A stretch of DNA of 64,000 nucleotides from Bacteroides sp. Marseille-P3684 (GTDB taxonomy: Bacteria > Bacteroidota > Bacteroidia > Bacteroidales > Bacteroidaceae), in the NCBI RefSeq assembly GCF_900291465.1, contig NZ_LT985808.1:1768408-1832407 (forward strand), read 5' to 3'. The translations under genes and the position numbers were made by a program. The notes under the pieces are model-generated. The model did no database searches and was not told where the DNA came from. It saw nothing but the letters and a program-made list of their open reading frames with translations. This document shows, piece after piece, positions 12,876 to 60,788 of this stretch; within the stretch, counting starts at the first letter, position 1, and the number at the start of each line of letters is the position of its first letter.

Positions 12876-12959
12876 TGATTGTCAGTTTTTTTCTTGGATG
12901 CTTTTCAGTATCCGTAACGCTTGCAGGATTTTCAAAAAGACAGGAATCTTTCTCTTTTG

Positions 12960-13495
12960 CTTGACGGAAGTGCGGAAAGAGGTCTTTTCAGCTGACGCGT
13001 CCTTTTCAAGAATCCGATAATCTGGAGATGAAACGTGAATGATTGCAAACGAAACGCCTGAAAAAAGCCTCTGATTTTAGAAAACTATACATTTCATTTT
13101 CGAAAAACAGACAAAACGTGCCCGGAACAATATTGTTTCGCGAGCCAAACAATATAGTTTGACGCGTCAAACAATATAGTTTCATGTCCCAAACACGATT
13201 GTTTCGTGCCCGGAAGTCAAATCTTTGGAAAATGAAACGCAAAAACACCGGGTTTCATTCTCCAGAAGGAGTGCGGTGTCAATAAATCGGAAGCTTTCAT
13301 AAAGCGCGGTTCAGGAAGTGGAAAGCATCCGTCAGGAAAGGTTCTGTGCTGGGATACTTCCTGCATGACAGCCTCTAGGTCGAATGGATGGCAATGTGTA
13401 TTTTGCGAATCGCCTGAGAAGGGCCTCGGAATCCACCGAATCGTATTTTGGTGCGAGGAAGGGGCGTGTAGAGCGGTTCATTTGACACTTTGACA
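12960..13495 (+). repeat. Dispersed 540-bp element, copy A, with 22-bp-pitch dyad array
   Basis: Noncoding copy of a dispersed element (others at 60178-60713 and inverted at 49066-49610). It starts at CTTGAC and ends near TTTGACACTTTGACA. Inside, 14-bp units start at 13081, 13103, 13125, 13147, 13169, 13191, 13213 and 13235, exactly 22 bp apart. The best are AAACAATATAGTTT (twice), GAACAATATTGTTT and AAACACGATTGTTT; the outermost units are weak. Spacers are always 8 bp: for example cgcgagcc, gacgcgtc, catgtccc, with cgtgcccg on both sides. The right part (about 13398-13480, AATGTGTATTTTGCGAATCG onward) is strongly conserved in copy B. Short open frames across it are not conserved between copies. 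Confidence 0.85.
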
Positions 13496-15802: not shown

Positions 15803-17713
15803 GTGTTGTCTAACGGGTGCAAGTCCCGAGTAAGCCCTAATAGCGGGAATTACATAGCCCCAGGCAAGGGTGTTCATCGCGAGGTGAAATCTGAAGGAAG
15901 CCGTCGGCAAACATCTGGCCTAACGAACAGAAACTTCATACAAGGCATATGACCGTGGGTAAGATTGCTAAACAAATCGAAGCCCTATAGCTATTCGGAA
16001 CGGTCGGTGTAGATGAAGTAGGTATAAGATGGAAAGACAACGCCCTTATCCGAGGAGGTCTCACGGACACTTCGAATAGTTTTTTTTTTTTACGAAAGAA
16101 GTGGAGTAAAGCTTGTCGTGAGAAGTCAGCAGACGCCATAGTAGTGCAGCTGTCGATAGAGTTGCATGAAGGGCAGAACCTAACAATTAAACGATAGTAA
16201 TTGAAACATACCATATGAAGGACAGAATGCAGAAAACATTATCACGTTTTAATGGCTGCCCTCAAAGGAATAGGTCGGAAACCGAAAGATATGGGGGAGT
16301 GCAGACCTTTATGTGGATGTGTGAAGACAACATCGTGGAAGTACCATTCGACAAGGAACACCTTTTCGAGCAAATTCTCAGTCCGTCAAATCTCAACAGA
16401 GCCTACAAAACAGTGGTGAGAAACAAGGGATGTGGTGGTATCGACAAGATGTCGTGCGAGCAATTGCTCCCATGGCTCCTGACCAATAGGGAAATGCTCC
16501 TTAGTTCCTTGATGGACGGCTCTTACCGTCCGAACCCGGTAAGAAGGGTAGAAATCCCCAAAGACAATGGCAAGATGCGCCTTTTAGGTATCCCCACCGT
16601 GATAGACCGATTGGTGCAACAAGCCATAAACCAAGTGTTGACTCCCATCTATGAGAACCAATTCTCCAAGACAAGCTACGGCTTCCGTCCGAGAAGAGGA
16701 TGCCATGACGCACTACGTGAAGCGCAGAGGATAATCAATGAAGGCTACGTATATGTTGTAGACCTTGACCTTGAACTCTTCTTCGACACGGTGTGCCACA
16801 GCAAGCTCATAGAAATCCTCAGCCGTACCATAAAAGACGGCAGAGTGGTCAGTCTTATACATAAGTATCTCCGTAGCGGTGTAATGAATAAAGGCTTGTT
16901 TGAAGCGAGCGAGGAAGGAACTCCCCAAGGAGGTCCGCTAAGTCCCTTGTTGAGCAACATTATGCTCAATGAACTGGACAAAGAGCTGGAACTCAGAGGC
17001 CTCCCTTTTGTGCGCTATGCGGATGACTCGATGATATTCTGCAGGTCCCGAAGGGCAGCAATGCGAGTGAAGGAGAGCATAACCCGATTTATAGAGAACA
17101 ATCTATATCTCAAAGTCAACCAGGAGAAGACCGTAGTGTCGTATGTGCGCGGAGTGAAATATCTCGGCTATTCCTTTAATGTAATGAAAGGTAAATGCCA
17201 ACTTACGGTACACCCGACATCCAAAGCCAAGATGAAGTCAAGACTAAAAGAACTGACAAGTCGCAGCAATGGATGGGGATATTCCAAGAGAAAGCAAAAG
17301 CTCAAAGAATACATAAGAGGATGGGTCGGCTATTATCATCTTGCCAATATGAAACGTCTTCTACTTACCACTGACGAATGGTTAAGGCGTAGAATACGTA
17401 TGTGTATATGGAAAGCATGGAAGAAAGTCAAGACAAAAGTGGCAAACCTCATTAGATGCGGTATCGATAAGTACAAGGCATATGAATGGGGTAATACTCG
17501 CAAGGGCTGCTGGCGCATAGCAGACAGCCACATAATGCACAGGGCAATCACAAATGAGAACTTGCGCAAAGCAGGGTATGCTACTTTAATGGGTGAATAT
17601 CTCGAATGGTACCCAAAATAGGAACCGCCGTATGCGGAACCGCATGTACGGTGGTGTGAGAGGACGGAAAACGAAAGTAGGAAGAAAACTACGTCGTTTT
17701 CCTCCTACTCGAT
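15803..17713 (+). mobile_element. Complete group II intron with encoded reverse transcriptase
   Basis: About 1.9 kb. The 5' end is placed at GTGTTG (GUGYG-like), followed by the domain I words AACGGGTGCAAGTCCCG. Domain V is visible at about 17623-17656, with CCGTATGCGG pairing to CGCATGTACGG. Domain VI follows, with GGAAAACGA pairing to TCGTTTTCC. An unpaired A at 17707 lies seven bases from an end in GAT at 17713, as expected for the branch point and the AY 3' end. The protein has no HNH endonuclease. Insertion just past a terminator hairpin, in the sense direction, is the habit of class IIC introns; the class was not proven here. Ends may be off by a few bases. Confidence 0.85.
16215..17621 (+). 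CDS. ltrA: Group II intron-encoded reverse transcriptase/maturase
   Basis: 468 residues, encoded within the intron. The reverse transcriptase domain is intact: VVRNKGCGGIDKMSCEQL, KDNGKMRLLGIPTVIDRLVQ, YGFRPRRGCHDAL, VVDLDLELFFDTV (catalytic Asp), EGTPQGGPLSPLLSNI and RYADDSMIF, with the YADD aspartates at 270-271. A maturase/thumb region follows, with a C-terminal SHIMHRAITNENLRKAGY block. No HNH endonuclease is present, so mobility would need priming from the replication fork or nicked DNA, as in class C-like introns. No frameshift is seen, so the element may be active. It assists splicing of its own RNA and retrotransposition. Confidence 0.95.
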   Translation: MKDRMQKTLSRFNGCPQRNRSETERYGGVQTFMWMCEDNIVEVPFDKEHLFEQILSPSNLNRAYKTVVRNKGCGGIDKMSCEQLLPWLLTNREMLLSSLMDGSYRPNPVRRVEIPKDNGKMRLLGIPTVIDRLVQQAINQVLTPIYENQFSKTSYGFRPRRGCHDALREAQRIINEGYVYVVDLDLELFFDTVCHSKLIEILSRTIKDGRVVSLIHKYLRSGVMNKGLFEASEEGTPQGGPLSPLLSNIMLNELDKELELRGLPFVRYADDSMIFCRSRRAAMRVKESITRFIENNLYLKVNQEKTVVSYVRGVKYLGYSFNVMKGKCQLTVHPTSKAKMKSRLKELTSRSNGWGYSKRKQKLKEYIRGWVGYYHLANMKRLLLTTDEWLRRRIRMCIWKAWKKVKTKVANLIRCGIDKYKAYEWGNTRKGCWRIADSHIMHRAITNENLRKAGYATLMGEYLEWYPK

Positions 17714-31957: not shown

Positions 31958-31994
31958 ACATAAAAGGGCGGTATACATTTCGGACACACCCGCC

Positions 31995-32273
31995 AGACAT
32001 TCGTGTTTGACTGGGCAAACACAAGTCTTTGACCGGGTAAACACAAGCGTTTGACTTGTCAAACTCATTAGTTTGATAGGGGTAAGTATCATACTTAGCT
32101 TGGAAAGGTATCATACTTAGCCTGGAAAGGTATTATACTTAGACCCCCTAAGTATAATACTTAGGCAGCCTAAGTATTATACTTTGGTCTATTAAACTAC
32201 TATGTTTGTCAGGTCAAACGCTTGTGTTTGGCAAATCAAACACTTGTGTTTCATCCGTCGGACAATTGTGTTT
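31995..32273 (+). repeat. Array D: 13 dyads at 22-bp pitch upstream of GH31
   Basis: Thirteen 14-bp dyads start at 31995, 32017, 32039, 32061, 32083, 32105, 32127, 32149, 32171, 32194, 32216, 32238 and 32260. Steps are 22 bp with one of 23. Outer units are AAAC...GTTT types (AAACACAAGCGTTT, AAACTCATTAGTTT, AAACACTTGTGTTT). The central five switch to AAGTAT-n-ATACTT (TAAGTATCATACTT, TAAGTATAATACTT). Spacers are 8 bp and mostly different. Unlike copies A-C there is no conserved flanking sequence. A possible -7 box for the GH31 gene (TAAGTTTG, 32335-32342) lies 60 bp beyond the last unit. No gene lies in the 509-bp gap. Confidence 0.85.
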
Positions 32274-32401
32274 GCCGGGGGAAAGTCATGTATGAAATTG
32301 AGCGAAAGATAATTCATAAATGAAGAATAAAGTGTAAGTTTGTCAATGTATAGACCTTTTCTCTAAATACGGAATGAAAACAACAGTTTAAAAGAACATA
32401 T

Positions 32402-49065: not shown

Positions 49066-49610
49066 TGTCATAATGTCAAAATGTCAAATGAATCGCTCCG
49101 CAGTGCCCTTCGTTGCACCCGAATACGAGTTGGTGGCTGAAAAGGGCATTCTGGAGCGATTCGCAAAATACACCGTGTCAGGTGTAGAGTAGTATTTCCT
49201 TTCCTTTTGAACGCTTTCCGGGGGATTGTCTTCTTCCGAAGTGAGTTGTATCCTTTCTTATGTTCCCTTTTAATAGCTTCCGATTTGTTGACGCCGTTCA
49301 TCTTCCAGCAAGCGAAACCTGCACTTTTTGCCTTTTAGTTTCCGAAGATTTGAGTTTTGCGGACGAAACAATATTGTTTGGAAGGTGAAACAATATTGTT
49401 TGACTCGTCAAACACTTGTGTTTCGCACGTGAAACAATATTGTTTGAGCCTCAAAATGTAAGTATTTCGAAAATGAAATGTATAGTTTTCTAAAATCAGA
49501 GGCTTTTTAAGCCGTTTTTGTTCACAGACGTTTGCTTTTGCTTGCTGGTTTGACGGAAATCTGCAAAGTATGCGTTAGCCGAAAAACGTGTTTTTGTCGG
49601 TTTTGTCAAG
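49066..49610 (-). repeat. Dispersed 540-bp element, copy C (inverted), with dyad array
   Basis: Reverse-complement copy of the element seen at 12960-13495 and 60178-60713. Its left end is TGTCATAATGTCAAAATGTC and its right end GTCAAG overlaps the stop codon of the Fur-family gene. Units start at 49366, 49388, 49410, 49432, 49454 and 49476, again 22 bp apart: AAACAATATTGTTT (three times), AAACACTTGTGTTT, AAATGTAAGTATTT and AAATGTATAGTTTT. Near the left end a long hairpin is clear (GAATCGCTCCGCAGTGCCCTT at 49090-49110, AAGGGCATTCTGGAGCGATTC at 49143-49163). The block around 49460-49500 is nearly identical to copy A. No gene is called inside. Confidence 0.85.
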
Positions 49611-50058
49611 CGTCTGGTGTCTTTCCCTTTCTTTTTGCTTTCCGGGCACACTCGTTGCAAAGTCCCTTGATGACATAGTTTATGCTGTTCATGGAGAAAC
49701 CTTCGGGCAGGGTGACCCGGGGAATGTGTATTTGCTTGAAGCAGAACGTCCGGTGGCACGCCTCACAGTAGAAATGGGTATGCAGGTCATCCACCTCGCA
49801 GTTGCAGTCGCTGCTGCAGAGGGCGTACTTCAGCGACCCCGAACCGTCGTCGATGGCGTGGATGAGGTGATGTCCGAGGAAGAGGGTAATGGTGCGGAAG
49901 ATGGTCGACTTGTCCATCGTCACGAGGCGGTCTTCCAGGTCGAGCAGGGAGAAGGCACGGTCGGCAGCCAGCATCTCCCGCAGCACCAACAGGCGGTTGG
50001 CGGTAGGCTTGATGTCGCGCAGGGCGAGCAGTTTCAGATAGGTTTCTTCATTTGCCAT
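49606..50058 (-). CDS. Fur-family metalloregulator
   Basis: 150 residues. Winged helix: LLALRDIKPTANRLLVLREML, then DKSTIFRTITLFLGHHL as recognition region. The dimerisation half carries metal-site residues (LHTHFYCEACHRTFCF) and the structural zinc pairs CEAC and CNEC. Zur, Fur and PerR types cannot be told apart here; the partner gene, a Zn/Cd/Co-type P-ATPase 14 bp upstream in the same operon, favours zinc or another divalent metal. The stop codon is shared with the end of repeat copy C. Confidence 0.88.
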   Translation of the reverse strand: MANEETYLKLLALRDIKPTANRLLVLREMLAADRAFSLLDLEDRLVTMDKSTIFRTITLFLGHHLIHAIDDGSGSLKYALCSSDCNCEVDDLHTHFYCEACHRTFCFKQIHIPRVTLPEGFSMNSINYVIKGLCNECARKAKRKGKTPDA

Positions 50059-60109: not shown

Positions 60110-60177
60110 TGCCCTGAGTACATCCCGGAACTGACTTGCCTCTGCCCAATCAGAAAGACACCGATTCGTCCGGAATG

Positions 60178-60713
60178 CTTGACAGAATCAGCAAAATTCC
60201 TCTTTCCTGCTAACACGCCTTTTTCAAAAAGCAGTCCAACCGGAAGCCAACCGTGAATGAATGCAAATAAAAACGAGGGAAAAAGGCTTCCATTTTAGAA
60301 AACTATACATTCTATTTTCGAAAAACAGGCAAAACGTGCCCGGAACAATATTGTTTCGCGCGCCAAACAATATCGTTTGCCGCCTCAAACAATATAGTTT
60401 CACCTGCCAAACACGATTGTTTCGTGCCCGGAAGTCAAATCTTTGGAAAGTGAAAGCGAAAAATCCGGAGTTTCACTCTCCAGAAGGAGTGCCGTGTCAA
60501 CAAATCGGAAGGTAGCAAAAAGGGATGGCTGTGGAGTGACGAGTGTCAGGAATGCCATGATGACCGTCACCCGGCTTTCTGGATGACACCGTCTGATGCC
60601 CAGATGCAGCAATGTGTATTTTGCGAATCGCCTGAGAAGGGCCTCGAAATCCACCAAATCGTATTTGGGTGCAAGGAAGGGCACTGTCGAGCGCTTCGTT
60701 TGACAAAATGACA
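60178..60713 (+). repeat. Dispersed 540-bp element, copy B, with 22-bp-pitch dyad array
   Basis: Same orientation as copy A. It begins CTTGACAGAATC and ends TTTGACAAAATGACA. Units start at 60299, 60321, 60343, 60365, 60387, 60409 and 60431; the clear ones are GAACAATATTGTTT, AAACAATATCGTTT, AAACAATATAGTTT and AAACACGATTGTTT, in the same order as copy A. The spacers cgtgcccg are identical to copy A, the others differ (cgcgcgcc, gccgcctc, cacctgcc). The right part (TTTTGCGAATCGCCTGAGAA onward, from about 60618) is almost the same as copy A. Frames over this region (85 and 108 codons) are not conserved in the other copies. Confidence 0.85.
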
Positions 60714-60788
60714 CATGAGGGCGCAAGTCCCGTCCGCCTCCCTTCCCTTCAGCAGGAAGGGGCGCTGCGGAGAGACTTGTTCCGAAAC

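Follow-up and report, generated by a model that had tools for sequence, protein, structure and literature searches.

Copies of a noncoding repeat in the window and in the genome

The window, meaning the whole 64,000-nucleotide stretch of DNA analysed here (1.768–1.832 Mb of the genome), contains three copies of a noncoding repeat (A, B and C; Table 1). SusC/SusD-like genes, suggestive of Bacteroidota, are also present, and a group II intron (15873–17713) carrying a reverse-transcriptase-like ORF (16215–17621) lies just downstream of groEL. The three dispersed copies had been proposed by a sequence-only reading of the window, and alignment of A, B and C confirms them. The alignment of copies A and B covers about 513 bp with 79% identity (E 8e-118), while copy C matches A in two blocks of 77–78% identity (E 1e-51 and 3e-16); the shared sequence therefore extends beyond the short dyads. 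We refined the extents of all three copies from their inverted ends, which moved the start of the element ~30 bp to the left of where it had been placed. The earlier statement that the copies follow gene 3′ ends or lie between transcription units needs correction for copy A, which is not 3′ of a gene.

Table 1. Coordinates of the three element copies and their parts in the window
Feature	Position	Strand	Remark
Element copy A, type 1	12929..13495	+	Upstream of groES, in divergent gap
Left-arm block, type 1, TTTTAGAAAACTATACATT, copy A	13075..13093	+	Pattern match
Array of four 14-bp palindromes (AAAC-N6-GTTT type), 22-bp period, copy A	13125..13204	+	
Right-end block, GTGTATTTTGCGAATCGCC ... 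TTTGACACTTTGACA, copy A	13396..13495	+	
Element copy C (inverted)	49074..49640	-	Between convergent dapL-like and Fur-family-like genes
Palindrome array, spacings 22/22/22, copy C	49366..49445	-	
Left-arm block, copy C	49477..49495	-	Pattern match
Element copy B, type 1	60147..60714	+	Between convergent phospholipase-D-like and S41-peptidase-like genes
Left-arm block, copy B	60293..60311	+	Pattern match
Palindrome array, 22-bp period, copy B	60343..60422	+	
Right-end block, copy B	60614..60714	+	

The sequence-only reading had argued that three copies in one window imply many more in the genome and had proposed a genome-wide count. That count gives ~97 copies of the ~570-bp repeat in the 3.71-Mb genome (three contigs), so the earlier argument understated the case. 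Pattern searches yielded 102 merged candidates, about 97 of them real, with 46 genome matches for the left block, 85 for the right block and 78 for the left end, compared with 2, 0 and 10 for the respective reversed-pattern controls; a nucleotide search with copy A alone reaches about 40 genomic places. The copies are intergenic, occur in both orientations with no clear strand bias across the genome, and each have unique flanks. Gene-context counts by a naive ORF caller were too noisy for use. A single repeat family thus makes up roughly 1.5% of the chromosome. We could not find a description of this family in the searchable literature, and our literature search, in which subscription journals are sparsely covered, returned no account of 22-bp palindrome arrays in this group.

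The element is bounded by short inverted ends, with TTTGTCAAAA at the left terminus and its complement at the right terminus, and conservation falls off sharply beyond both. About 62 bp in from the left inverted end is a left site, TTTTC-GCTAACGCGTACTTTT. It is followed in order by a stretch that differs between subtypes, the palindrome array, a block of moderate conservation, a ~100-bp spacer that is hypervariable between copies, and a right-end block, TGTATTTTGCGAATCGCC...CACCAA..CGTATTTTGGTG...TTCGTTTGACATTTTGACA. The element has several features of a MITE: a length of ~567 bp, inside the 50–1000 bp typical of that class, a copy number of ~97, no transposase gene (no reading frame is conserved) and terminal inverted repeats. 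Internal frames are not conserved, as had been noted before, with single-base indels separating copies in the right block. Reverse-strand coding, considered for a peptide-like stretch (RFAKYT), is broken by stops and single-base indels in the right block and was rejected. A separate short palindromic repeat, GGGCGACCGGTCTGGTCGCCC, is often found just outside the element (in the flanks of L186, L213, L228, L255 and other copies).

Different parts of the element have diverged to very different degrees. The median identity over all pairs of copies is 0.79 in the end blocks compared with 0.32 in the spacer, and the median spacer identity between nearest neighbours is 0.53. Close groups are few (L213/L228, L186/L215/L255), several of them adjoining rRNA operons, and the remaining copies are well diverged; at five of the six rRNA operons, a copy is located about 0.5–0.7 kb upstream of 16S. 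Despite the decayed spacer, nearly every copy retains intact end blocks, and almost all type-1 copies keep the left site and the right block the same distance apart, give or take one or two bases. Conserved ends held at a fixed distance, beside a decayed spacer, are unlike what would be expected of uniformly decaying fossils, and the geometry of the element, besides its sequence, appears to be under selection.

Palindrome array and helical phasing

In nearly all AAAC-type copies the array consists of 14-bp palindromes (AAAC-N6-GTTT), four or five in number, whose centres are separated by 22 bp. AAAC on one side and GTTT on the other are constant, while the inner six letters vary (AATATT, ACTTGT, ACAAGT, AATATA). 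With a detector whose sole requirement was palindromes in register, six order-1 Markov shuffles of the window gave no exact 22-bp palindrome array. The GC-rich subfamily of 19 copies that we call type 4 is built on an unrelated palindrome unit, about GTACGGACGCGTCCGCAC, again with a 22-bp period, and 18 of these 19 copies group together in the tree (support 100/94). Another intergenic 22-bp-period array lies at 31990–32330 of the window, where AAGTAT-ATACTT units, a second dyad family, are flanked by AAAC-GTTT units; this array lacks the ends of the element, and the AAGTAT-ATACTT family recurs in the ter region at 2.00, 2.14, 2.15, 2.39, 2.53 and 2.64 Mb. In L246 (3.314 Mb), the array stretch appears twice, once on each side of a lone N, which probably reflects an artefact of assembly.

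The length of the element is quantised. Measured between the left site and the right end, lengths are confined to 466, 474–480, 485–489, 497–499 and 510, with the gaps between them empty, and the length classes are about 10.5 bp apart (477, 487, 498). None of 20,000 Monte Carlo runs on the distinct values was as extreme, a result to be read with the relatedness of the copies in mind, since related copies are not independent and part of the quantisation is inherited. The tree requires at least 13 changes of length class. Aside from a jitter of one to three bases, the length changes seen correspond to roughly one turn of the helix or a whole number of turns. Furthermore, 67 of 73 copies have the array at phase 2–3 (mod 11) relative to the left site, and the array lies at a distance near 0 (mod 11) from the right end. 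Because lengths are quantised and the array is phase-locked to both ends, the constraint is likely to be helical phasing of a putative DNA–protein complex, with array and ends on one face of the helix.

Chromosomal distribution and relatives in other genomes

Among sampled loci, the GC skew reverses near 0.58 Mb and again near 2.32 Mb, and each of the six rRNA operons is directed away from 0.58 Mb. This places ori near 0.58 Mb and ter near 2.32 Mb; the position of dnaA, 2.95 Mb, is not that of the origin in this genome. Over ten bins of relative ori–ter distance the copies number 11, 13, 13, 11, 11, 15, 13, 9, 1 and 3, so that density is flat along 80% of both arms and then falls around ter (KS test on the whole distribution, 0.003). 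The last 20% toward ter contains 4 copies against 20 expected (binomial 4e-6, with the cut picked after seeing the data). A profile search of 0.78 Mb around ter recovered these four copies, all complete, along with some weak remnants. In addition, the subtypes are graded along the ori–ter axis, with medians of 0.16 for type 4, 0.43 for type 2 and 0.58 for type 1. The ter depletion, the helical phasing and this grading lend weight to a structural chromosome element, one of three possibilities offered by the sequence-only reading.

The family is close to private to this genome. Six sister genomes contain no instance of the AAAC dyad pair, of which there are 219 in this genome; across 301 genomes of the taxonomic family, the right block gives only single matches outside this genome, little above control, and among GTDB contigs single matches at about chance level. 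In sister species the family is absent apart from one divergent copy, adjoining a Tex-like gene in genome G001, whose array is built of G001's own CGGAAAGGA motif. When stretches of this and six sister genomes were scanned for 7-mers occurring three times at a constant spacing, with periods of 12 to 44 allowed, period 22 came out almost alone (a few of the matches in this genome are runs of N). The 22-bp arrays of the sister species are mostly intergenic-looking and differ in palindrome from species to species (CGGAAAGGA, GATGTACATC, AAAGGACACGTGCTTT, GAACGTTCGTTC and others). Loci L336–L375, from G001, G011, G012, G002 and G013, are such arrays, each genome with a different palindrome of its own.

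Origin and possible function of the family

Several observations are compatible with a mobile origin, namely the sharp ends, the unique flanks, a deletion derivative in which the two ends are joined without an array (L253), and a copy, L187, that is cut short by a transposase-like reading frame. The sequence-only reading had proposed checking for target-site duplications, and the check gave no signal: k-mers common to the two flanks of a copy are no commoner than those shared between flanks of different copies, a comparison that degenerate or very short duplications could escape. An autonomous partner with the same ends was not found among the fetched loci, the window and the 0.78-Mb ter stretch. 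These two results, together with the scarcity of close copies, argue against recent movement. Local hopping left no linear-distance signal outside type 4. The dapL and groEL neighbourhoods of sister species contain no element, although synteny between sister species is broken, and so an exact empty site was not obtained. Comparison with known repeats gave no match to a known transposon in plasmids or phages; in IMG/VR there are two matches to the dyad pair, which look like coincidences, and four to the right block. The earlier suggestion of a non-autonomous mobile element is accordingly upheld in part: boundaries, inverted ends, flanks and species-specific expansion agree with it, whereas the target sites, the lack of a visible transposase partner and the divergence of most copies do not.

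The closest known kind of element is the BrickBuilt MITE of Porphyromonas gingivalis, as described in the passages of the report on which we draw here (PMC4596501). Both are intergenic and comprise a leader, a short-period tandem array and a tail bounded by short inverted repeats, and in both the copies are non-identical, species-limited and without coding capacity. BrickBuilt differs in its period (23 versus 22 here), repeat number (1–23 versus 4–5), copy number (19, few of them complete, versus ~97, nearly all complete) and ends (GAGACCTTTGCA, IS5-like, versus TTTGTCAAAA); its target-site duplications are irregular, and those passages make no mention of helical phasing to the ends or of ter depletion (PMC4596501). 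Given the different ends, period, copy number and repeat number, our element is a look-alike rather than a member of BrickBuilt. The same passages describe MITE464/PgRS of P. gingivalis, likewise small and non-autonomous with inverted ends and internal tandem repeats, but with 41-nt repeats, other ends and around 10–20 copies (PMC4596501).

Our leading explanation, held with moderate confidence, is that the family is an old MITE-like repeat of BrickBuilt-like layout, expanded in this species and kept as a helically phased platform for a putative protein. The repeat would originally have spread by transposition, with the enzyme supplied in trans. A putative dimeric DNA-binding protein would read the half-sites AAAC/GTTT, its dimers occupying four (or five) sites 22 bp, or two helical turns, apart, a spacing that would place all of them on one helix face. 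As the two end sites share the same helical phase, ends and array could form one nucleoprotein complex. Selection would maintain the copies today, most plausibly for chromosome organisation or local regulation.

That the repeat is a plain MITE seems to us somewhat unlikely; such a non-autonomous transposon would serve no host function and would depend on a transposase not seen here. The array would then be an enhancer-like binding site for the enzyme or its regulator, and the short inverted ends, the intergenic dispersal, the confinement to one species, the ends-only derivative lacking an array and the match in layout to what is described of BrickBuilt (PMC4596501) would all be accounted for. 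Harder to accommodate are the lack of target-site duplication, the few close pairs with a nearest-neighbour spacer identity of 0.53 (median), ends kept intact in nearly all copies though the spacer has decayed, and the nearly empty terminus. Folding of the right-end palindrome into a noncoding RNA family or transcript-end structures, the former also suggested by the sequence-only reading, is very improbable. Some right ends do fold into long perfect hairpins (L172, −61 kcal/mol), but the paired fraction of the outer helix is 0.646 both as observed and after re-dealing 3′ arms between copies within type, so the fold-back pairing shows no covariation, which argues against a noncoding RNA. Alignment folding of the copies yields no structure, Rfam has no match to the window copies, and an RNA would need no exact DNA-helical spacing.

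The copies may alternatively be chromosome-organising sites analogous to those of Noc or SlmA, bound by a putative nucleoid protein that would time division or shape the nucleoid; we consider this unlikely. Noc of Bacillus subtilis provides a precedent, with about 70 palindromic sites, none in the terminus (PMC4331003), and here too palindromic sites are spread by the tens across the chromosome with few in the terminus (4 of ~100 in the last 20%). Noc sites are, however, discrete and bound by a known protein (PMC4331003), whereas here arrays lie inside a ~570-bp repeat with defined ends. SlmA sites of E. coli, in the passages drawn on, are likewise specific DNA sites that are richer toward the origin (PMC4331003, PMC4117426). 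The flat density over 80% of both arms followed by 4 copies against 20 expected, the ori–ter assignment backed by both GC skew and rRNA operons, and the subtype grading all favour such a role. To our knowledge, SlmA-binding sites do not occur within a dispersed repeat, and we claim no sequence relation between them and the element. Against this role stand the post hoc choice of the 20% boundary, a ter region that may merely be rich in acquired DNA, the occurrence there of another dyad family (AAGTATAATACTT), conserved ends and a 570-bp body that a simple binding site does not need, and the absence of the family from sister species.

A broader proposal, speculative and in our view quite unlikely, is that each species of this genus has chromosome-wide palindrome arrays with a fixed 22-bp period, whose sequence would change from one species to the next in step with a binding protein particular to each. 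In this species the arrays would be carried on a domesticated repeat with helically phased ends that is excluded from ter. They would then represent a hitherto undescribed system for organising the chromosome, its sites co-evolving quickly.

If one protein binds the arrays of this repeat, it would have some 300 sites and act as a global organiser of DNA, and through the ter depletion a role in division or chromosome organisation could be tested directly. Palindromes that change between sister species while the 22-bp period stays fixed would, moreover, offer a model of protein–site co-evolution.
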